Shown here piece by piece: positions 1 to 47,072 of a DNA stretch of 47,072 nt. Under the pieces are notes generated by a model. The model ran no database searches and was not told the DNA's origin. It worked only from the letters and a program-made list of their open reading frames with translations. Made by a program: the position numbers and the translations under genes. The stretch is from a virus. The stretch is from positions 1 through 47,072 of IMG/VR virus record IMGVR_UViG_3300030020_000035; one strand, 5' to 3'. Numbering within the stretch: the stretch's first letter is position 1; every line of letters begins with the position of its first letter.

Positions 1-126
1 TCACCTCGCCGGTGTCGAGGTCGACGACAGCGATCGGGCGCTCGGGGAACATGCTGTCGGTGATGTTTTCCTCGGCCTTCCGCTTCGCCTCGTCGAGAGT
101 GTCAAAGTCGGGGTAGGTGTAGTGAA
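1..126. repeat. Direct terminal repeat, left copy
   Basis: These 126 bases are identical to 46933-47058. The first mismatch is at base 127 (t here, c at 47059). A reading frame on the minus strand continues through the join without interruption, which supports a circular or circularly permuted genome assembled with an overlap rather than a true long terminal repeat. Confidence 0.95.
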
Positions 127-385
127 TGTCGTGCTTGTCGTTGAAGGTGACCGCGCAGTACCGGCCCACGGGGCACCCGGCGGGGTGAACCGTCGCGCCC
201 CCGCGCCAGGGGAAGTACTCAGCCGAATCCTCGCCGGAACTGTTGTCGGTGTTACCGATCTCGATCCAGTACTGCAGGCACACTTCACGATAGGCCACCT
301 GCCTGTCGGTGAGCTTGGTGACCTCGTCCGACTGGGTGATGGTGATGCAGTCGGCGTCGTCGTTGATCTTGTAGCTGTTCGGCAT
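2..385 (-). CDS. Unknown small phage protein, first part of a three-ORF frameshift chain (cut by contig end)
   Basis: The protein begins MPNSYKINDD at ATG 385-383, eight bases after the ribosome-binding site AGGAG in an AACTAGGAG leader. Only the first 128 codons lie here; across the circular join the frame continues from 46932 down to a TGA at 46885-46883, giving 144 residues in all. It is acidic and soluble, with no signal peptide or membrane segment, and I do not recognise the family. Its final codons are GAG-GGA-GCC-TGA-GAC, the recurrent +1 frameshift signal of this region, and the +1 frame opens directly into the ORF at 46609-46884. Confidence 0.8.
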   Translation of the reverse strand, partial: MPNSYKINDDADCITITQSDEVTKLTDRQVAYREVCLQYWIEIGNTDNSSGEDSAEYFPWRGGATVHPAGCPVGRYCAVTFNDKHDIHYTYPDFDTLDEAKRKAEENITDSMFPERPIAVVDLDTGEV

Positions 386-964: not shown

Positions 965-1126
965 TTACAGCCGGTGCTCGGGCACCTCCCCGATAATCGG
1001 CATCCTCACGAGGCGCTCAGACCTCGCGTACGGGCTGCTGTGCTGGCGTTCGCGCTCCTCCCGGTCCCACTCATCGAGCCGGTCTTCTTCGCGCTCGATC
1101 AGGTCGCGTAGCTGGGAGTCGGTCTT
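965..1126 (-). CDS. Charged coiled-coil ORF reached by +1 frameshift from the 1125-1442 gene
   Basis: The frame has no ATG, GTG or TTG close to a ribosome-binding site. It opens right at the stop of the upstream gene: skipping the T of TAA at 1127 gives Lys-Thr-Asp-Ser and 53 residues rich in Glu, Arg and Asp (core DLIEREEDRLDEWDREERE), probably a helix or coiled coil, ending at TAA 967-965. The coding-like composition and the shared GCC-TAA-GAC signal argue for a fusion product of 158 residues. A CTG start at 1102 is the alternative. Confidence 0.6.
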   Translation of the reverse strand, partial: KTDSQLRDLIEREEDRLDEWDREERERQHSSPYARSERLVRMPIIGEVPEHRL

Positions 1127-1137
1127 AGGCTCCCTCC
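1122..1137 (-). other. Putative programmed +1 frameshift site (GGAG-N3-GCC-TAA-GAC)
   Basis: On the minus strand the codons read GAG-GGA-GCC-TAA-GAC. A Shine-Dalgarno-like GGAG lies three bases upstream of the P-site codon GCC, which precedes a stop readable by RF2. Skipping the T of TAA opens the +1 frame (965-1126). The layout matches the known prfB frameshift design (SD, three bases, slippery codon, stop). Confidence 0.65.
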
Positions 1138-1442
1138 GGGTATGAGTAGCTGCGGAAGCTCGAGGCTTTATAGGCCTGCTCGCCCACCTCGGTGCAGTAC
1201 ACGTTGCGCTGCTCGCCCTTGATCCAGACGTTCACGCCGCGCTTGAAGACCCGCCGGACCACGTATGTGTCGCTCCAGTCGAGGTCGACGGTCACGCTGT
1301 AGCCTGCGCCGACCGGCAGCGTGACGCCGGTCTCACGTACCTGCACGCGTCCCCCGCTGATGGCGAGCATGTTCATGCGCCCGATTTGCGCGACGGTCTG
1401 CGAGGTGTCGCATGGGCGGAAGGTCTCGGTCTCGGTGCTCAT
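1125..1442 (-). CDS. Unknown beta-rich small protein, zero-frame part of a frameshift pair
   Basis: 105 residues from ATG 1442-1440, behind AACTAGGAGACG. The first five residues, MSTET, and the DNA around them match the start of the gene at 3746, suggesting shared or duplicated 5' ends. The body alternates hydrophobic residues (VQVRETGVTLPVGAGYSVTV), as in a small beta-barrel. No recognised family. It ends GAG-GGA-GCC-TAA at the proposed +1 site, so two products are expected, 105 and about 158 residues. Confidence 0.75.
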   Translation of the reverse strand: MSTETETFRPCDTSQTVAQIGRMNMLAISGGRVQVRETGVTLPVGAGYSVTVDLDWSDTYVVRRVFKRGVNVWIKGEQRNVYCTEVGEQAYKASSFRSYSYPEGA

Positions 1443-1556
1443 GGTGAATCGTCTCCTAGTTCATGCTGGGCAAGCGCTCAGCGGTTTGAGTGAAACATTG
1501 GCCAATGGGATAGTGAGTCCCTGCGCGCCGCTTCCTGCAGCCGCCTGGCCAGGCGC
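1443..1556 (-). repeat. Intergenic repeat unit C
   Basis: It lies between the stop at 1557 and the ATG at 1442. It holds a hairpin GGGA/TCCC (507-510 with 518-521 of the second kilobase, i.e. 1507-1510 and 1518-1521) inside TGGCC/GGCCA (1499-1503, 1547-1551), followed in transcription order by CTCAAACCGCTGAGCGCTTGC (box at 1479-1470) and AACTAGGAGACG. The order of parts matches the units at 386-526, 2383-2506 and 46259-46370. Confidence 0.5.
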
Positions 1557-1904
1557 TCAGTCGTCGTCGAAAATCCCCCGTCCGAGGTCTTCCTCAGCCA
1601 TGCTCGGACCTTCGCGCGATTCTTCGCACTGCCGGAAGTAGCGCGCCTCGGCCTCGGCCTCGGCCTCGTCGTCGGCCTCGTCGTCGTCGGCCTGCGCTGC
1701 TTCCAGCATCAATGTGGCGAGACGCTCGTTAGCCTCGTTCAGAGCCGCTTGCGCGCGGGTCATTACAGCGATGTCGTCGATCGTGCCGAACGTCTGGACG
1801 CCGCATAGCTCGCCCAGCTGGCTGATCTCGCGTCCAGCGGAGTGACTCCACTCGATCACTTCACTGACTAGCTGGTTTTGACGCTCAGCGGTCGAGTCCG
1901 TCTC
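1557..1904 (-). CDS. Acidic ORF reached by +1 frameshift from the 1903 gene
   Basis: The frame is open from the upstream stop: skipping the T of TGA at 1905 gives Glu-Thr-Asp-Ser and then 115 residues to a TGA at 1559-1557. The middle is a helical segment (TRAQAALNEANERLATLMLE) and the end is strongly acidic (repeated Glu, Ala and Asp, last residues GIFDDD). The only internal start is GTG 1859, which has no ribosome-binding site. Fusion to the upstream ORF would make about 274 residues. Function unknown. Confidence 0.65.
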   Translation of the reverse strand, partial: ETDSTAERQNQLVSEVIEWSHSAGREISQLGELCGVQTFGTIDDIAVMTRAQAALNEANERLATLMLEAAQADDDEADDEAEAEAEARYFRQCEESREGPSMAEEDLGRGIFDDD

Positions 1905-1915
1905 AGGCGCACCTC
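1900..1915 (-). other. Putative programmed +1 frameshift site (GAGG-N3-GCC-TGA-GAC)
   Basis: Minus-strand codons AAG-AGG-TGC-GCC-TGA-GAC. The Shine-Dalgarno-like AGAGG ends three bases before GCC. A +1 slip at GCC-TGA leads into the ORF at 1557-1904. The bases GCGCCTGAGACGGAC also occur at the site near 46609. Confidence 0.7.
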
Positions 1916-2382
1916 TTCAGCATCGATGCGACGGCCTCGGCGGGCGAGTCGCAGTAGTGCCCGGACTCCAGCTGGTCACCTTCAGGCCTCAGGTATGCCC
2001 AGTGCGACCCGCACTCGCTTAGGATCAGGCCTCGCGGTCCTGCGGACCATGCGACGATGAATGACTGCCAGCCGTCGGGCGCTCCTGCCATCGGCACGAA
2101 GCCGAGGAGGTCTCCCCCGACTGCCTTCCTGCAGAGTGTCTGCAAGCGCTGGGCGGTTGAGCCGACCTTGCAGGTAATGTCGGCCTCGCCATTCTCAGCG
2201 GGAGCCTCAAATCCCGTGAAGGTCGATCGCAGAATCGCGACGGCCTCCTCGCGCGAAATCCCTACACTCTGGGCTGCCCGTATCTGCTCCTCGCGGCTGC
2301 TCGTGTTCGCTGCGACGACGGCTGAGATCGCGCGAATCGCGCGGTTCGCGTTCCTCCGCTTTCCACTTACGTGCTCGGACAT
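1903..2382 (-). CDS. Unknown phage protein with N-terminal helical region, zero-frame part of a frameshift pair
   Basis: I take the start at ATG 2382-2380 (MSEHVSGKRR, 159 residues), eight bases after AAAGG; an upstream in-frame start at 2418 would add 12 residues. Residues 5-60 are basic and helical (IRAISAVVAANTSSREEQIR), and the C-terminal half looks like a small alpha/beta domain (IVAWSAGPRGLILSE, CGSHWAYLRPEGDQ). No family recognised. The coding sequence contains another GCAAGCGCT box (2142-2150). It ends at the +1 site AGG-TGC-GCC-TGA. Confidence 0.7.
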   Translation of the reverse strand: MSEHVSGKRRNANRAIRAISAVVAANTSSREEQIRAAQSVGISREEAVAILRSTFTGFEAPAENGEADITCKVGSTAQRLQTLCRKAVGGDLLGFVPMAGAPDGWQSFIVAWSAGPRGLILSECGSHWAYLRPEGDQLESGHYCDSPAEAVASMLKRCA

Positions 2383-2506
2383 CTGGGACGCCTTTCCGAT
2401 CGCTTGACCGCTGAGCAAGCGCTCGGCGGTTACTGCCCTGCATGGGCCGATAGGAGCGCGACTCCTCGGCGGCTGCAGCCTCGCTGCCCCGCTCGGCCTC
2501 GGCTGG
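2383..2506 (-). repeat. Intergenic repeat unit D with CGCGA-loop hairpin
   Basis: It follows the stop at 2507. A hairpin AGGAG-CGCGA-CTCCT (2452-2466) sits inside GGCCGA/TCGGCC (2445-2450, 2493-2498). Downstream in transcription order comes AACCGCCGAGCGCTTGC (box at 2424-2415). The unit at 46259-46370 has the same loop on a different stem, a compensatory change that favours a folded RNA. Confidence 0.6.
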
Positions 2507-3301
2507 TCAGGCTGCGAGGAGCGACTCCTCGGGCGCGCAGTCGGGCAGCCTCACGAAGCCGTCGTGAGCGCCCATACCGCGCGCTTTACCCTTCGCCCGC
2601 AGCCCTGCGATGACGCCTCGCCCGTCCAAGTACCGGAGGTCATGCAGGTCACCATCGACTACCTGCGCGCCCATGTACGTGAGCGGTAGCGGCTGCCCTT
2701 TCTTCACTGCGAAGACAACGGCTGCGCCAAACCCCTGCGCGAGCGCGTCTCGCACGTTCGCCTCACTCCGAGGAGTCTCAGCGAGCGAGAAGCAGAGTGA
2801 GTAATTCGCGATGCCCGCGACCTTCCGCAGACGCACTGGCCACTTAGTGTAATCGTAGAATCGGACCTCGGGAAAGGCTGCGAACACATTCGGGAAGGCC
2901 TGCCCGTCTCGCTCGACTGGGAAGGCCTCCCATGGGAGATCGGAAGTGCCATTCAGCCTCACTGCGGCTGAGAGACCGGCGCGCGCTGCCCTGCGCTCAT
3001 GCTTCGCGATCTCCCCCACGAGGTCTGCAAGGAACGTGGCTCGGTCAGCGTGAAAGCGCTCGGTGCGAGCGATGCGCGCCCGCTGAATCGCGTTCAACCC
3101 TTCCGAGTCGAGCGCAATTCCCCCGCGACCCGCCGTATTCAGACATGCTGCCCTGCACTGCTCGCTCGAGTGCGGGCACGTGTTCCGACTGCTCATGTTG
3201 GCGGGCGCCAGATGCATGATCGCCGTGAGTACTCCGAGGCCTTCCGACTTGGCCACCTTGGGATTGCTCAGAGTGAGGAGGGACCGCTTGCAGTCGGTCT
3301 C
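2507..3301 (-). CDS. Conserved Cys-containing phage protein of unknown function, reached by +1 frameshift
   Basis: The 264-residue frame opens at the upstream stop (Glu-Thr-Asp-Cys-Lys). From about residue 13 it resembles a phage protein family I know only as uncharacterised: NPKVAKSEGLGVLTAIMHLA, then CPHSSEQCRAACLNTAGRG (four cysteines, possible metal site) and VRLNGTSDLPWE. A GTG at 3256 could be an independent start but has no ribosome-binding site. Fused to the 148-residue ORF upstream, the product would be 412 residues. Composition and family likeness make this the best supported of the +1 ORFs. Confidence 0.75.
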   Translation of the reverse strand, partial: ETDCKRSLLTLSNPKVAKSEGLGVLTAIMHLAPANMSSRNTCPHSSEQCRAACLNTAGRGGIALDSEGLNAIQRARIARTERFHADRATFLADLVGEIAKHERRAARAGLSAAVRLNGTSDLPWEAFPVERDGQAFPNVFAAFPEVRFYDYTKWPVRLRKVAGIANYSLCFSLAETPRSEANVRDALAQGFGAAVVFAVKKGQPLPLTYMGAQVVDGDLHDLRYLDGRGVIAGLRAKGKARGMGAHDGFVRLPDCAPEESLLAA

Positions 3302-3312
3302 AGGCGCACTCC
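3297..3312 (-). other. Putative programmed +1 frameshift site (GGAG-N3-GCC-TGA-GAC)
   Basis: Minus-strand codons CCG-GAG-TGC-GCC-TGA-GAC, with CGGAG three bases before GCC. A +1 slip gives the long conserved ORF at 2507-3301. Confidence 0.7.
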
Positions 3313-3746
3313 GGGTCGCAGCCCGTCAGCGGGTCTGCCACGAGCCGCACGTTCACTGCTCCCTGCGCGTGCAGAAGCACGTTCTCGCGCGCCTGAGCGA
3401 GCGTAATCGGCTCGGCAATCATGACTTCCATGTCGCTGGCCACGATCTCGCTGCCGCGCTGTATGTCGAACCTGTAGCGGGTCGAGACTGCCGTCCGCTC
3501 GCGATTGCGCTCGGCGGTCTTCGTCTCCTGCCCCGGGCTGCGGCTGATCGTGCAGGTGAGCAGCTGACCACGCGTTCCCTCCTGCAGCTGAGAGGCGACC
3601 GTCAATTCGACCTGCCGCAGGTCGGCCTCGCTCATTCCCTGAGAGGCGAGCGCACTGCAGACCTGCTCGGTGAGTCTGTCGGCCAGCCCTGCGAGGTCTT
3701 CGCGATTCTCCCTCGCCCTGCGCTCAGAGTAGGTCTCGGTGCTCAT
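3300..3746 (-). CDS. Unknown phage protein, zero-frame part of a frameshift pair
   Basis: 148 residues from ATG 3746-3744 behind AACTAGGAGACGAC. The start MSTET is shared with the gene at 1442. The first half is helical and charged (ERRARENREDLAGLADRLTE). The second half includes a strand-rich segment (RYRFDIQRGSEIVASDMEV) and ends LTGCDPECA. No known domain. It is the first gene left of the divergent control region, so it is probably the first transcribed of this arm. Its stop is the +1 site into the conserved Cys-containing ORF. Confidence 0.75.
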   Translation of the reverse strand: MSTETYSERRARENREDLAGLADRLTEQVCSALASQGMSEADLRQVELTVASQLQEGTRGQLLTCTISRSPGQETKTAERNRERTAVSTRYRFDIQRGSEIVASDMEVMIAEPITLAQARENVLLHAQGAVNVRLVADPLTGCDPECA

Positions 3747-19190: not shown

Positions 19191-21023
19191 ATGGCCGGCA
19201 TTGAGGCATCCGAGGTCGCAGTCCGCATGCTGTTGCTGGACTCGAAGGCTTTTCAGGAGGAAATGGCGAAGAACGCGGACAGTGTCCGTGCGGTTCGCGA
19301 CGCCGTGGAGGAGGTCGACGCCGCCGGCACTGAGGGTGGCCTGACGGGCTTCCTGGGCCGCTCGAGCGCCGCGCTCGATACGGTGAACGGCAAGCTCGCC
19401 AACATCTCCAAGTCTGCCCTGCAGTTCGGCCGGCAGACGGCCGTTGTGAGCGCTGGCGCCGCCGCACTGATCTACGAGTCCGTGAAGGAACACGCCGCAG
19501 TCGAAGCTGACTACATCCAGCTGCAGACCCAGGCGCACCTCAAGTACGCCTCCGAACGGGTCCAGCTTGAAAAGGACGCGAAAGGCATGAGTAAGTACGG
19601 CGTCGACCCGAAAGAAGTGGTCGAAGCGTACTACCCGCTCCAGTCCGTCCTGCACAACACCAAGCAGGACTACGAAGGGCTGAAGGCCGCAGCCGAGGGC
19701 GCTGCGGTTGGCCATGACACACTCCTGAACGCGACGAACGCGGTCACCTCGGGCTTCAAGCTCGGCTTCAAGGACGTGCATGGCTTCAAGGAAGAGATGG
19801 CGCTGCTCGACGAAACCGTCGGCGCCGGCAAAATGCACCTCCCCGACCTCACCGAGACTTTCTCGGGAAAGCTCTGGGCGACCTCTGTCGCGCTGGGCCT
19901 GCCTGAGCGCGAGATCCTCGCCACAGTGGCTGCCGCCACGGCGACGATGGGCGAAGGCGGCGGCATCAAGTTCTCCAACACCCTCTCGACGATGCTCCTC
20001 AAAGCCATCGGCTTGAAAGGCGAGGCCAAGAGCGCGGCGACGAAGCTCGGCCTGACCGAGTTCGAGGCAGCCGACGAGCTTCGCGAAACCGGCGGCATGC
20101 ACAAGCTCCTCAGCCAGCTCGCCGCCGCACGCGGTCGCCTGGGCCAGGACGAATGGCAGAAAGATGTTTCCGAAATGTTCGGCGGCTCCCGCTCGGCCGG
20201 CACCCTGTTCCAGGCTTTCAACCAGATGAAAGCGCAGCAGGAAATCGAAACTCGCCTGGACGGCGTGTCGGGCGGCAAGACGCTCGACAAGCACTTCGGT
20301 GAAGCGTCGAAGGCCCTTTCGTTTGACATGAAACAGCTCAAGTCTCAGACGCATGAAGCCCTCAACGAACTCGGCAAGTTCTTCGGGCCTCCCGTGATCA
20401 AAGGGCTGAAAGACCTCGCCGGTTTCGTTCAGGAAGTCGCTGGCACATTCAGCGAACTGCCCAAGCCCATCAAGGATGGCCTCGGCGTTCTCGTGGTGTT
20501 CACCGCCGCGCTCGCCCCGGTCGCCTTCGTCGTGGCCGGTCTCGCCCGCGTGTTCATGATGGTCATCTGGCCGATCGAGAAGTTCATCTGGCTGGTCAGG
20601 TTCGTCCCCACCATCCTAGAGACCCTCGATGGCGCCGCGTGGGGTCTAGCCGCCGCGCTCGAGGGCGTGAGCTTCGCTGCTGTCACCGCCGGCCTGGCGA
20701 GCGTCGTGGCGTTTACCGCCCCGATCCTCGCCCTGGTCGCAGCCTGGAAAGCCCTGGACAAACTGCTTCCTCAGGGTGACCGTCCCGAAAATCTGCTCGG
20801 CGGCAACCAGCCAGGGGAAAAGCACCAGAAAGCCAATGAAGAAAAGGTCGTCAAGCGGTTCAACGAAGAGGGCGCCCACGCCGAACCACACATCAACGGC
20901 GTCTATGGCCGTCAGATCGAACTGATTCTTCACACGAAAGTGGATCTCGACGGCAAGCAGGTCGCCCTCGGCATCGTGCATCCTCTCCACCAGATCGAGC
21001 GTCGCGAACAGAACCTGAGGTAG
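19191..21023 (+). CDS. Tail tape measure protein
   Basis: 610 residues from ATG 19191. It has a TP901-type tape measure core (GGGIKFSNTLSTMLLKAIGL; EWQKDVSEMFGGSRSAGTLF), an N-terminal helical part, and a hydrophobic stretch near residues 425-520 (GLGVLVVFTAALAPVAFVVA; VAFTAPILALVAAWKALDKL) likely to insert in the host membrane. By the usual 0.15 nm per residue its length would set a tail of about 90 nm. It follows the chaperone pair. Confidence 0.9.
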   Translation: MAGIEASEVAVRMLLLDSKAFQEEMAKNADSVRAVRDAVEEVDAAGTEGGLTGFLGRSSAALDTVNGKLANISKSALQFGRQTAVVSAGAAALIYESVKEHAAVEADYIQLQTQAHLKYASERVQLEKDAKGMSKYGVDPKEVVEAYYPLQSVLHNTKQDYEGLKAAAEGAAVGHDTLLNATNAVTSGFKLGFKDVHGFKEEMALLDETVGAGKMHLPDLTETFSGKLWATSVALGLPEREILATVAAATATMGEGGGIKFSNTLSTMLLKAIGLKGEAKSAATKLGLTEFEAADELRETGGMHKLLSQLAAARGRLGQDEWQKDVSEMFGGSRSAGTLFQAFNQMKAQQEIETRLDGVSGGKTLDKHFGEASKALSFDMKQLKSQTHEALNELGKFFGPPVIKGLKDLAGFVQEVAGTFSELPKPIKDGLGVLVVFTAALAPVAFVVAGLARVFMMVIWPIEKFIWLVRFVPTILETLDGAAWGLAAALEGVSFAAVTAGLASVVAFTAPILALVAAWKALDKLLPQGDRPENLLGGNQPGEKHQKANEEKVVKRFNEEGAHAEPHINGVYGRQIELILHTKVDLDGKQVALGIVHPLHQIERREQNLR

Positions 21024-37330: not shown

Positions 37331-38343
37331 ACTTGCCAGACCCCTTTATCCTGCTCGATCACGCCCCGCTTCTTCAGGCTCTTGAGCACGCCCAGCAGCT
37401 GGCCGCGCTCCATCGCCAGGTTGTCTTCAGCGAGGGGCAGTAGGTCCGCGAACTTTCTGGGCAGCTGATCCATGACTGCTTTCTCAAGACGCTGTTCGCG
37501 TTTGACCTGCGGGTCCGCGTCCTTGATCCGCTTGATCGCCTTGTGAGCCGACAGGTAGTCGAGGAAGTCCTGCCCCGTCGACCACGACGGGATGAAGTCG
37601 TACGTTCCGTCGGGGTGTGTGTTGAGCACGAACTGTGCGTCGGTCGCCGGGAAGCCCATCTCGACGCTCGCCAGCTCGTACCCGGACAGCTGCGGGAAGT
37701 GGCTCGTGGGGTAGCACCCCTTCGCGGTCTTGAGGTCGTCGAGGGTCAGCGCCGAGGCGCAGGACGCAGCGAGGGAGCGAACGCGATCAGCCTGCGGCGA
37801 CTCGTGATCCTCGAACAGATCCTTGAACGGGTGTTCCAGGCCGACAAGCCGGCGCGCGCTGATGAGACATCGCACGTCGTACCTTCCTGCAAAGCGGTGA
37901 ACCGCTGAGACGAGCTGCACCTCTGTCGCCACGAACTCGGGTCGATAATCGACGTACCACTGGCACACGGCCTTGGCGTGGCCGAGGGATTCCTCGGAGA
38001 AGCCGGACAGGTCGACGGTGCCGCTGGTCGCGAGTCCCTCGAGCACGTCGTGGACCCAGGTGCCACGGTCGCCGGCCGCGTCCCGCTTGCCCCACGGCGT
38101 CAGGCCGCGCTTCTGCAGGGCGGCGCGCAGCTCGTCGGGGTGCTCGAACTGGTTGAGGTTGCGGATCTCGTACGCGCCCTCGTAGCCGATGCGGAAGCCC
38201 CACGCGGACGCGATGCCCCAGGCGTCCTGATCACCGATCTTGGCAACCGTCGAGACCCCGGCTAGTTTCTCTCCGTCGAGGTAGTAGGAGTGGGACGCCC
38301 CGTCAAAAGTGACCGGCGCCCGTGCGATCGTCGAGTCGGTCAT
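37321..38343 (-). CDS. RecB/Cas4-like PD-(D/E)XK exonuclease
   Basis: 340 residues from ATG 38343, coupled to the preceding stop (ATGA). Nuclease motifs: GTWVHDVLEGLA, then Glu in VATEVQLVSAVHRFAGRYDV (with Asp), DDLKTAKGCYPTSHFPQLSG (catalytic Lys, Gln) and YELASVEMGF. The C-terminal 100 residues include a small winged-helix-like part (GQLLGVLKSLKKRGVIEQDK). It probably resects phage DNA ends for ERF. Its stop is inside a promoter element. Confidence 0.85.
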   Translation of the reverse strand: MTDSTIARAPVTFDGASHSYYLDGEKLAGVSTVAKIGDQDAWGIASAWGFRIGYEGAYEIRNLNQFEHPDELRAALQKRGLTPWGKRDAAGDRGTWVHDVLEGLATSGTVDLSGFSEESLGHAKAVCQWYVDYRPEFVATEVQLVSAVHRFAGRYDVRCLISARRLVGLEHPFKDLFEDHESPQADRVRSLAASCASALTLDDLKTAKGCYPTSHFPQLSGYELASVEMGFPATDAQFVLNTHPDGTYDFIPSWSTGQDFLDYLSAHKAIKRIKDADPQVKREQRLEKAVMDQLPRKFADLLPLAEDNLAMERGQLLGVLKSLKKRGVIEQDKGVWQVVT

Positions 38344-39092
38344 GGCCGGTCATCCAGCTCGGCGTGATGCTTGCCGAAGTACATGAGGGCAAAGCAGTGA
38401 AACACCACGCTCGCGAGGTGCATGCACTCGGTCTCCGGGTCGAGTTCCTCGCCGCCCCAGAACGCCATGGCATGACGGATGAGACTGTCGAAGCTCAGCG
38501 ACCAGGCGTAGCCTTTCCGCCAGTTGTGTGCGGAGTACTTCGCAGCGCCCCTCGCATACAGCTCTGCGACGTTGGCAAGCTCCTCCCACGGGATCAGGTT
38601 GAACTGCTGCGGCTTCTGACCCTTCTGTCCACCTGTCCTCATGTCGACGATGCGTACCTCACCCGTGGCTGGCGCCGGCTGACAGTGTGTCTCGGGCGGG
38701 GCGCTGGCGTGGGCCACGTCGATCTCCACGTCGGTGACTAGATCCATCTCCGGGTAGCGGTAGATCGGCAGGCCACACAGCCGCGCCACGAACGTCTCGA
38801 GTCGAGCGCCACGCGATTTCTCCCAGCCAGGAAGCACGGCGATCCCTTCGATGCCCCCGTCCGCGATCATCTTCACGTCGCGAGCGAGGAGGTCTCCCCA
38901 GGTGTCTCCGTCGGCGTACTCGTCGGGGTTCCCGGTGACTGACCGTTCGGCTGCCGCTTTTGAGGCCGGCGAGTCCAGCTCAGCCGGGCTAGTGACACAC
39001 CAGTCCCTGATCCGCAGCTGGGTCGCCGCCTCCTCAAACGCGGGAAAGTTGAAGTGCGGGATCCCCGACATCGGGCCGGCTATGTACAGCAT
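38340..39092 (-). CDS. DUF4406 + dATP/dGTP diphosphohydrolase-like fusion
   Basis: 250 residues from ATG 39092; longer starts exist, but homologous domains begin at MLYIAGPMSG. Residues 1-95 are a DUF4406, deoxyribosyltransferase-like domain (YIAGPMSGIPHFNFPAFEEA ... DVKMIADGGIEGIAVLPGWE). Residues 155-245 match the N-terminal dATP/dGTP diphosphohydrolase family (FNLIPWEELANVAELYARGA; AKYSAHNWRKGYAWSLSFDS; LIRHAMAFWGGEELDPETEC). Together they suggest remodelling of nucleotide pools. Confidence 0.78.
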   Translation of the reverse strand: MLYIAGPMSGIPHFNFPAFEEAATQLRIRDWCVTSPAELDSPASKAAAERSVTGNPDEYADGDTWGDLLARDVKMIADGGIEGIAVLPGWEKSRGARLETFVARLCGLPIYRYPEMDLVTDVEIDVAHASAPPETHCQPAPATGEVRIVDMRTGGQKGQKPQQFNLIPWEELANVAELYARGAAKYSAHNWRKGYAWSLSFDSLIRHAMAFWGGEELDPETECMHLASVVFHCFALMYFGKHHAELDDRP

Positions 39093-39114
39093 CACTGCCC
39101 CGAATATGTCTCGT

Positions 39115-39315
39115 CTACGCATAGCGCACCGCACGGGTCTTCTGCTGACCTTTGACGATCGCGACGACCTGCCAGCTGGGGATGATTCCCCGCCACGCCC
39201 GACGCCAATACCGCGTGTTGTTGCGGTGCTCGCGAAGGATGAGGCGCCGGAACGAGCGCCGCTGGCGTCGGTTCATGGTGGCGAAGTCGATCTCCGTCTT
39301 GTCCTTGAGATTCAC
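39115..39315 (-). CDS. Small basic protein
   Basis: 66 residues from GTG 39315, coupled to the stop before it (GTGA). Strongly basic (MNRRQRRSFRRLILREHRNN, RYWRRAWRGIIPSW), suggesting nucleic-acid binding. No known family. Confidence 0.62.
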   Translation of the reverse strand: MNLKDKTEIDFATMNRRQRRSFRRLILREHRNNTRYWRRAWRGIIPSWQVVAIVKGQQKTRAVRYA

Positions 39316-45782: not shown

Positions 45783-45919
45783 GAGCGCCACATCGAGTCG
45801 GTCCAGAGCGACCATGTCGGGGTTCCCCGGCGACGGTGAACCCGTCGCTGGATGACCCACGGCCCGATCTGCCACTCCCAATAAAGCTCGCCCTTGAAGG
45901 GTGTTCGTACGAGCTTCAT
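45779..45919 (-). CDS. Small basic, Trp-rich protein
   Basis: 46 residues from ATG 45919, coupled at both ends (ATGA). It begins MKLVRTPFKGELYWEWQIGP and has several Trp and Arg residues. Function unknown. Confidence 0.55.
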   Translation of the reverse strand: MKLVRTPFKGELYWEWQIGPWVIQRRVHRRRGTPTWSLWTDSMWRS

Positions 45920-46080
45920 GCGCTCACCCCCATCGCGCGCCGCAGCGCGCCTCGCAGCGCCACCTTGTAGACGGCGTCTCCGAGGATGAGGCTCACGCCG
46001 AGGGCGGTGGCCAGGTTGTCCACCATGAGGCCCGTCACGGCCTCTCGCGTGTCTGTGATCGCGTCGCTGAGCACCGTCTT
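45916..46080 (-). CDS. Small hydrophobic ORF reached by +1 frameshift
   Basis: 54 residues opening at the stop of the 46258 gene (Lys-Thr-Val-Leu). It has a hydrophobic helical stretch (NLATALGVSLILGDAVYKVA) and a basic end. GTG 46074 could be an independent start but lacks a well-spaced ribosome-binding site. As a fusion the product is 113 residues. Confidence 0.62.
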   Translation of the reverse strand, partial: KTVLSDAITDTREAVTGLMVDNLATALGVSLILGDAVYKVALRGALRRAMGVSA

Positions 46081-46091
46081 AGGCCCACTCC
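46076..46091 (-). other. Putative programmed +1 frameshift site (GGAG-N3-GCC-TAA-GAC)
   Basis: Minus-strand codons TCG-GAG-TGG-GCC-TAA-GAC. The signal matches those near 1125, 1903, 3300, 46609 and 46883. Confidence 0.65.
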
Positions 46092-46258
46092 GAGAGCGTG
46101 CCGTCGCTGCCGATGTACGCGCGGGAGTCTCCCTGCCCGACGATGAGGATCCACTCGCCGCTGCCGCCCTCGTCGAGGAGCACCTCACCGCCTCCCATGT
46201 CTACCCAGCGGGAGAGCGTCTTGATCTGCTCGGGCGTGAGCTTCATGATGAATGGCAT
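46079..46258 (-). CDS. Small unknown protein, zero-frame part of a frameshift pair
   Basis: 59 residues from ATG 46258 behind AACTAGGAGACGACGAC, nearly the leader of the 3746 gene. The sequence begins MPFIMKLTPEQIKTLSRWVD and continues as a small beta domain (LLDEGGSGEWILIVGQGDSR). It ends at the +1 site. Confidence 0.65.
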   Translation of the reverse strand: MPFIMKLTPEQIKTLSRWVDMGGGEVLLDEGGSGEWILIVGQGDSRAYIGSDGTLSEWA

Positions 46259-46370
46259 GTCGTCGTCTCCTAGTTCTCGTTGATGGGTACTGCAAGCGCT
46301 CAGAGATTGAGCGCTAAGAGCCGGTGAGGGCGCGACCCTCGGGCGCTGCTTCCGCCCCGGCCCGTGAGTG
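46259..46370 (-). repeat. Intergenic repeat unit E with CGCGA-loop hairpin
   Basis: Hairpin GAGGG-CGCGA-CCCTC (46326-46340) sits inside GCCGG/CCGGC (46320-46324, 46357-46361). Downstream come the dyad AGCGCTCA/TGAGCGCT and the box GAGCGCTTGC (46301-46292), then the conserved leader. Unit D at 2452 has the same loop on a different stem. Confidence 0.6.
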
Positions 46371-46610
46371 TCAGCTGACGGTCACCTTTCCGGCGTCGAC
46401 CTTGATCACGCCGTAGAACTTCCGCGACCTGTATGGGTCCGGCCCGACGAACGTGTAGTTACCGTCGGGTAGTTCATCCACGCGCCCGCTGTAGCCGCCG
46501 AATGGACTCGTCGACTCGATCTCCACGGTGTGGATGTCGGAGGCGCAGACAGCCTTCACTTCCTTCTTGCTCCTCGGCCTGCGGCTGGCGATGAATATCC
46601 CGTCCGTCTC
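46371..46610 (-). CDS. Third ORF of the double-frameshift chain
   Basis: 79 residues opening at the stop of the 46609 ORF (Glu-Thr-Asp-Gly). Basic start (FIASRRPRSKKEVK), then a beta domain (DIHTVEIESTSPFGGYSGRV; GNYTFVGPDPYRSRKFYGVI). A GTG at 46559 has a possible AGGAG ten bases upstream, so separate initiation is not excluded here. Confidence 0.65.
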   Translation of the reverse strand, partial: ETDGIFIASRRPRSKKEVKAVCASDIHTVEIESTSPFGGYSGRVDELPDGNYTFVGPDPYRSRKFYGVIKVDAGKVTVS

Positions 46611-46621
46611 AGGCGCACCTC
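46606..46621 (-). other. Putative programmed +1 frameshift site (GAGG-N3-GCC-TGA-GAC)
   Basis: Minus-strand codons CTG-AGG-TGC-GCC-TGA-GAC, followed by GGAC, as at 1903. Second site in the chain. Confidence 0.7.
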
Positions 46622-46884
46622 AGTCCGGGCGAGTAGTACCCCTCGCGCGCCCACCACTCGCGGTCGAGCGGGGTCATGGCGTCCCACACATCGGCGGGAA
46701 GCTCGGGGACCATGCTGACCACGTTGTGATAGCCGCTGATCTGCTCGTCGCGCACCGCGAACGCGTGGGCCTCGTAAACGTCCGCGAGCGCCTCGGGCGG
46801 AACGCCTTTGATCTTGTGGTAAGCGGTGCTGCAGCCGTCGCAGTCCACCTCGTAGCTGATGAGAACCCGCGTGAAGGCCGTCTC
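46609..46884 (-). CDS. Second ORF of the double-frameshift chain
   Basis: 91 residues opening at the stop of the first ORF (Glu-Thr-Ala-Phe). VLISYEVDCDGCSTAYHKIK has two cysteines of a possible metal site; later parts are helical (PPEALADVYEAHAFAVRDEQ) and aromatic (DREWWAREGYYSPGL). The only in-frame start nearby, GTG 46905, overlaps the first ORF and has no ribosome-binding site. It ends at the second +1 site. Confidence 0.65.
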   Translation of the reverse strand, partial: ETAFTRVLISYEVDCDGCSTAYHKIKGVPPEALADVYEAHAFAVRDEQISGYHNVVSMVPELPADVWDAMTPLDREWWAREGYYSPGLRCA

Positions 46885-46896
46885 AGGCTCCCTCCT
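46880..46896 (-). other. Putative programmed +1 frameshift site (GGAG-N3-GCC-TGA-GAC)
   Basis: Minus-strand codons AAG-GAG-GGA-GCC-TGA-GAC. AAGGAGG lies just upstream of GCC. First site of the chain. Confidence 0.7.
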
Positions 46897-47058
46897 TGAG
46901 GTCACCCCACACCACGCGAGGGGTGGATTCGGTCACCTCGCCGGTGTCGAGGTCGACGACAGCGATCGGGCGCTCGGGGAACATGCTGTCGGTGATGTTT
47001 TCCTCGGCCTTCCGCTTCGCCTCGTCGAGAGTGTCAAAGTCGGGGTAGGTGTAGTGAA
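46883..47058 (-). CDS. 3' end of the first ORF of the chain (continues at 385-1)
   Basis: This is the C-terminal part of the 144-residue protein whose start is at 385, duplicated here by the contig overlap (TLDEAKRKAEENITDSMFPE to the final DLKEGA). Beyond 47058 the frame stays open to the end of the window, but with sequence unlike that at 127. Confidence 0.8.
46933..47058. repeat. Direct terminal repeat, right copy
   Basis: Identical to 1-126. The 14 bases after it (47059-47072) do not match base 127 onward. Confidence 0.95.
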
Positions 47059-47072
47059 CGCCAGCGGCGCCG

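Follow-up and report, generated by a model that had tools for sequence, protein, structure and literature searches.

The window studied here, i.e., the whole virus record IMGVR_UViG_3300030020_000035 of 47,072 bases, carries six copies of a short signal at the ends of open reading frames (ORFs) that probably directs programmed +1 frameshifting. In each copy, a Shine–Dalgarno (SD) core, GGAG or GAGG, is followed by a three-base spacer, the alanine codon GCC and a TGA or TAA stop (TRA). As the initial annotation of this DNA had described, all six copies lie on the minus strand and close ORFs, here of 59–159 codons, and beyond each of them the +1 frame is open for 53–264 codons (Table 1). The sequence GCCTRAGACSG has six exact matches in the window, every one on the minus strand at an ORF end, against 0.18 expected from dinucleotide shuffles, none of which reached six. 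The four-base SD core ends exactly 3 nucleotides (nt) 5′ of GCC at 6/6 sites. Two of the sites, 46883 and 46609, are consecutive in a single three-ORF chain, with the +1 frame entered at the former ending at the latter.

The contig ends share 126 base pairs (bp; 1–126 = 46933–47058), after which a non-matching tail of 14 nt, CGCCAGCGGCGCCG, completes the window (overlap and tail, 46933–47072). The genome is hence probably a circular or terminally redundant molecule of ~46.93 kb, so that the six sites would fall into one contiguous region, running from 46,900 down to 45,900 and then across the ends from 3,750 down to 960. The first ORF of chain A/B continues across these ends and starts at ATG 385 with a AACTAGGAGACGCAGACATG leader. 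A conserved leader, ACTAGGAG(A)CGAnnnATG, precedes each cassette (minus strand, near 46274, 45590, 3759, 1460, 915 and 401), and the promoter-like GAGCGCTTGC is often found about 25–60 nt upstream of these leaders.

The downstream frames lack clear starts of their own

That the +1 frame is open without its own start is clearest at 3300, 1903, 1125 and 46609. At 3300, the +1 product matches the GP88 family (Pfam PF17338, E = 1e-39; phrog_1617), which in other phages is a free gene with its own ATG just before a conserved LLTxxNPK. In the window, the seven codons between junction and LLT read GAG ACC GAC TGC AAG CGG TCC, and as there is no start among them, no recognised start can serve GP88 here. 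Compared with its nearest relative, in contig L093, the window GP88 has 0.32 nonsynonymous (dN) and 2.1 synonymous (dS) substitutions per site (dN/dS ~0.15), which points to purifying selection and thus to a working protein. A search for relatives of the upstream ORF at 3300 found none. The protein downstream of 46609 is a stand-alone gene with AGGAG and ATG in contig L093 and is also free-standing in the Streptomyces phages BillNye and Circinus, where the initiator methionine aligns with the first +1 codon at 46609. From both sites it follows that the signal occupies the position of the start codon. The downstream frames in the window encode GP88 and unknown proteins, and there is no release factor 2 (RF2) gene among them.

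The missing starts had likewise been noted before, with a possible GTG at 46609 as the only exception. For 3300 the claim holds, but the GTG was misplaced: it lies at 46905, upstream of the 46883 junction and without a clear SD, in the ORF that ends at 46609, so that it bears on how the middle ORF of chain A/B is entered. A second GTG lies two codons past the junction of site 46079, but at 13 nt from GGAG.

Table 1. Positions of the six signals and of the ORFs that they connect in the window
Feature	Coordinates	Strand	Remarks
Signal A	46878..46895	-	GGAG-GGA-GCC-TGA-GACGG; +1 frame open 91 codons
Signal B	46604..46621	-	GAGG-TGC-GCC-TGA-GACGG; in series after A; +1 frame open 79 codons
Signal C	46074..46091	-	GGAG-TGG-GCC-TAA-GACGG; +1 frame open 54 codons
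Signal D	3295..3312	-	GGAG-TGC-GCC-TGA-GACCG; +1 frame open 264 codons
Signal E	1898..1915	-	GAGG-TGC-GCC-TGA-GACGG; +1 frame open 115 codons
Signal F	1120..1137	-	GGAG-GGA-GCC-TAA-GACCG; +1 frame open 53 codons
First ORF of chain A/B, 5′ part	1..385	-	144 amino acids (aa), MPNSYKIND...KEGA; continues 46932-46883 across contig ends
First ORF of chain A/B, 3′ part	46883..47058	-	ends at signal A; 47058-46933 repeats 126-1
Middle ORF of chain A/B	46609..46884	-	ETAFTRV...GLRCA, 91 codons; entered from A, ends at B; no ATG near junction
Last ORF of chain A/B	46371..46610	-	ETDGIFIASRRP..., 79 codons
Upstream ORF of signal C	46079..46258	-	59 aa
+1 ORF after signal C	45916..46080	-	54 codons
Upstream ORF of signal D	3300..3746	-	148 aa
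+1 ORF after signal D, GP88 family protein	2507..3301	-	264 codons; PF17338, phrog_1617
Upstream ORF of signal E	1903..2382	-	159 aa from ATG 2382
+1 ORF after signal E	1557..1904	-	115 codons
Upstream ORF of signal F	1125..1442	-	105 aa
+1 ORF after signal F	965..1126	-	53 codons

Recurrence of the signal in other phages

When 2.9 million viral contigs were scanned by pattern, the signal CGGAGGNGGCC-TRA-GACGG was recovered from about 20 further uncultivated phage contigs, there in its stronger form GGAGGNGGCC-TRA-GACGG. It often occurs in chains, with four sites in L023/G007, three in L080/G017 and two in L013/G002; L062/G014 carries four sites. By protein comparison, the carriers fall into several groups with few or no proteins in common, and their G+C content ranges from 42 to 69%. 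The family of six seen at first thus counts the window correctly but understates a signal that recurs across phage contigs. In the diverged pair L015/L025 (71–77% protein identity), both signal and phase are kept, which answers the question raised in the initial annotation of whether homologues preserve them. Sequencing or assembly errors, or decayed genes, would equally leave broken frames, which is all that speaks for them; that the same error should hit one motif six times, and do so again in independent assemblies (L011/L019, L029/L071/L092, L036/L062) and in many other phages, is practically inconceivable.

In total, 38 distinct sites were picked by a motif containing GCC-TRA-GAC. At these, the +1 frame is the longest of the three in 33/38, and its median opening is 86.5 codons, versus 17.5 and 26 for the others. 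An opening of at least 45 codons is found at 35/38 sites but at only 45% of 1,555 control ORF ends of the same contigs (p = 8e-10); the 38 sites are not all independent, given that the motif may have been spread en bloc. Immediately past the junction, the C/G-rich third codon positions are those of the +1 phase. The stop is TGA at 30 sites, TAA at eight and never TAG, although TAG closes 28% of the ORFs in these contigs, and the TAG form of the signal is absent from the whole viral collection.

GCC-TRA-G is present at every site, but given the selection by GCC-TRA-GAC, the fixity of these bases needs unbiased tests. In a scan of all ORF ends followed by GAC.G, every SD-bearing one has GCC, and the others lack an SD there. 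A scan of the collection that allowed any first base in the slip codon added only L357, a non-coding chance match. The ACG or ACC that follows RAG is not the sole constant element of the signal; in other phages, GCC and TRA are also fixed far beyond chance.

Wider searches gave little beyond this set. Among 84,980 bacterial and archaeal species genomes there were 25 chance-like core matches without the frame pattern, and a 31-nt query against 50,697 phage records found no convincing match and three chance-like partial ones. Loose SD forms, AGGNGNGCCTGAGACGG, yielded chance-like matches alone outside the main set, and copies without the T, CGGAGGNGGCCRAGACGG, turned up as ordinary coding matches, none of them in motif contigs. 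Among the open papers searched, we found none that describes this repeated signal.

In L056/G013, one copy, GGAGGTGGC-TAAGACGGTCCTC (also written TCGGAGGTGGC-TAAGACGGTCCTC), is the signal minus one C, and its frames are fused in line, reading ...TSEVA-KTVLP.... This fusion corresponds to the product that would be expected from a +1 slip. Such one-C-deleted copies lie at L056 ~278 and also at L281 ~4255. At L062 12897, the upstream partner is a complete anti-restriction ArdC protein (ArdcN and zincin peptidase domain); an upstream partner can thus be a complete known protein. End-of-chain copies or remnants without a long +1 ORF were seen at L030 3427, L056 437 and L310 ~1149 (minus), two of them adjoining terminator-like repeats.

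Chain ends without a partner ORF show that a gene can end in the motif and gain no useful extension from it, in line with cassette swapping at the motif. It could therefore be argued that the motif is mainly a DNA joint for cassette exchange by recombination, with the open +1 frame as a by-product of little translational meaning; in agreement with this, phages with few proteins in common have the same 18–20 bp where unrelated genes meet. A mere joint, however, would leave downstream genes startless, yet GP88 is under purifying selection. Moreover, over the 38 sites the bases relevant to the ribosome are fixed while their neighbours vary, and the stop varies only between RF2 codons. We consider this explanation very improbable.

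Elsewhere in the window, the protein at 38340–39134 (minus strand) resembles a nucleoside 2-deoxyribosyltransferase in its N-terminal part and has a C-terminal part common to several phage protein families; it is possibly a domain fusion.

Discussion

Our analyses support the frameshift interpretation of the initial annotation. We think it probable that each site is a programmed +1 frameshift with the geometry of the prfB site, an alanine GCC as the slip codon, and a role as a serial gene linker. While the signal, its phase, the missing starts, the conservation and the recurrence are visible in the sequence, the following model, with its slip, tRNA step, yields and benefit, is an inference. 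When a ribosome on the upstream gene has GCC in the P site, its A site would hold UGA or UAA, the stops of the RF2 type, and base pairing of the GGAG/GAGG core to the anti-SD of 16S rRNA would put strain on the P-site contact. During slow termination, the peptidyl-tRNA-Ala could then move by one base, from GCC to CCU, keeping the middle pair and a G-U wobble, and reading would restart at GAG/AAG-ACG/ACC in the +1 frame. Non-slipping ribosomes would terminate and release the upstream protein alone, whereas slipping ones would make an upstream–downstream fusion. Consecutive sites might thus produce a multi-domain chain with a yield that falls along the chain. In accessory regions of several phage groups, the signal would serve as a gene linker that replaces the start codon of downstream genes. 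If SD tension causes the P-site tRNA to slip at GCC while termination at the RF2 stop is slow, the SD, its spacing, GCC, TRA and the phase are accounted for together.

We rejected several other routes into the downstream frame. Same-frame stop readthrough is discounted by the conserved proteins lying in the +1 frame and not in frame 0. Initiation at the CTG within the motif would give the wrong frame, as frame +2 soon closes. A phage-encoded frameshift tRNA was also considered, but there is no tRNA in the window.

Several observations weigh against programmed frameshifting. To our knowledge, GCC is not an established bacterial slip codon, and it re-pairs at two positions only. Downstream RNA structure as a stimulator was tested and rejected, with a mean z of 0.17 versus −0.05 in controls and no fold standing out. 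For L015/L025, dN and dS are about equal, which does not support purifying selection there. At L030, the second site of L056 and probably the fourth site of L023, either no real +1 ORF or a terminator follows, and among the 38 sites G022 and G023 (ATG at codon 4) and G025 (another frame longer) are weaker cases. The junction codon is ACG at 32 of the 38 sites, which exceeds codon usage (ACG makes up ~40% of the threonine codons in the window) and for which a +1 shift offers no explanation. Finally, the form with ATG in place of ACG, GGAGGNGGCCTGAGATGG, is a fairly common coupled junction, present in 40 viral stretches (L317–L356) and once in the motif phage G006 (L271 17638).

The latter two points suggest termination–reinitiation, in which the ribosome would stop at TRA, be held by GGAGG and restart one base later on the near-cognate ACG, giving two separate proteins. 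The distance from GGAGG to ACG, 9 nt, is within the range of true starts, and the downstream genes stand alone elsewhere, with the junction falling on their start codon. Against this, the remaining junction codons, ACC at four sites in three phages, including GP88 at 3300, and ACA at two, are implausible starts, and ATG is found at none of the 38 sites. Multi-site phages, except G006, have no ATG junction, although a single transition would suffice. Reinitiation also does not call for the absence of TAG, as any stop would serve, nor for a fixed GCC at a fixed distance from the SD, and the direct fusion of frames in L056 is at odds with it. At the ATG junctions, GGAGG is followed by T, C or A and never by G, whereas G mostly takes this place at the frameshift-motif sites, which marks the two as different populations; the ATG junction in G006 nevertheless suggests that the two modes may interconvert. 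In L297 (G022), two copies of GGAGTNGGCCTGAGACAGTANCTATG (2038 and 2714, minus strand) have ATG as the fourth +1 codon and are possibly intermediates between a frameshift and a coupled start. All in all, reinitiation appears unlikely, and we favour programmed frameshifting.

With somewhat less assurance, we find it plausible that several mostly unrelated uncultivated phage groups use SD-N3-GCC-TRA-GACGG as an interchangeable whole-gene joint, building graded fusion chains with up to four shifts from one start codon. As far as we know, programmed +1 shifts are rare in bacteria, the classic one regulating RF2. A standard +1 joint that is present many times in a genome, also in series, and is shared by mostly unrelated phages would be a new gene organisation. 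Many small phage proteins would then be missed or mis-started by gene finders, and GCC-TRA would be a new slip site for study.

Comparison with known systems

The prfB of actinobacteria lacks the frameshift signal and has lost this control. The window terminase matches those of actinobacteriophages at ~40%, and from this similarity the phage host is likely an actinobacterium. The serial +1 joint also raises the question of whether phages sense host RF2 activity, possibly in actinobacteria whose prfB lost this control.

Frameshift fusions near the end of an upstream phage gene are also known from tail assembly chaperones of the lambda G/GT type. There, however, the shift is usually −1, occurs on a slippery heptamer and is found at one site between the major tail gene and the adjacent tape measure gene, so that region, direction and signal are all unlike those seen here; in the window, the tape measure gene lies at 19191–21023 on the plus strand and the frameshift sites elsewhere on the minus strand. 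Closer in direction is Listeria phage PSA, with +1 frameshifts in capsid and tail genes (PMC5009743). Like the present sites, these are shifts at the 3′ end of an upstream phage ORF, but in PSA the slip codon encodes proline and the sites lie in structural genes, one per gene, whereas the window-type signal has an alanine GCC, a strong SD and a repeated cassette in accessory genes. The eukaryotic antizyme +1 shift at UCC-UGA shares an NCC slip codon before UGA with two re-formable pairs only (compare PMC10885494) and differs in its eukaryotic setting, its other stimulators and its polyamine sensing. Coupled termination–reinitiation junctions (GGAGG..TGAGATG) have SD and stop in nearly the same layout. 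They feature a true AUG, in contrast to the ACG, ACC or ACA with a fixed GCC and RF2 stop found here, and over the 38 sites we see neither a recognised start at the stop nor independence of stop type and last codon.

The closest likeness is to prfB itself, where an SD-like sequence ends 3 nt before the P-site codon, an RF2-type stop occupies the A site and the +1 frame continues the protein (PMC12421855, PMC3711429). SD spacing, RF2-only stops and +1 continuation recur at the phage sites, so that the prfB-like layout proposed earlier stands in these respects. It departs from prfB in having GCC and not CTT(T) as the slip codon and G and not C after the stop, and in lying outside the RF2 gene. 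Moreover, the phage signal is present in many copies per genome, in series, would fuse whole proteins and probably acts in an actinobacterial host. The window signals would thus work like the prfB site but outside the prfB family.

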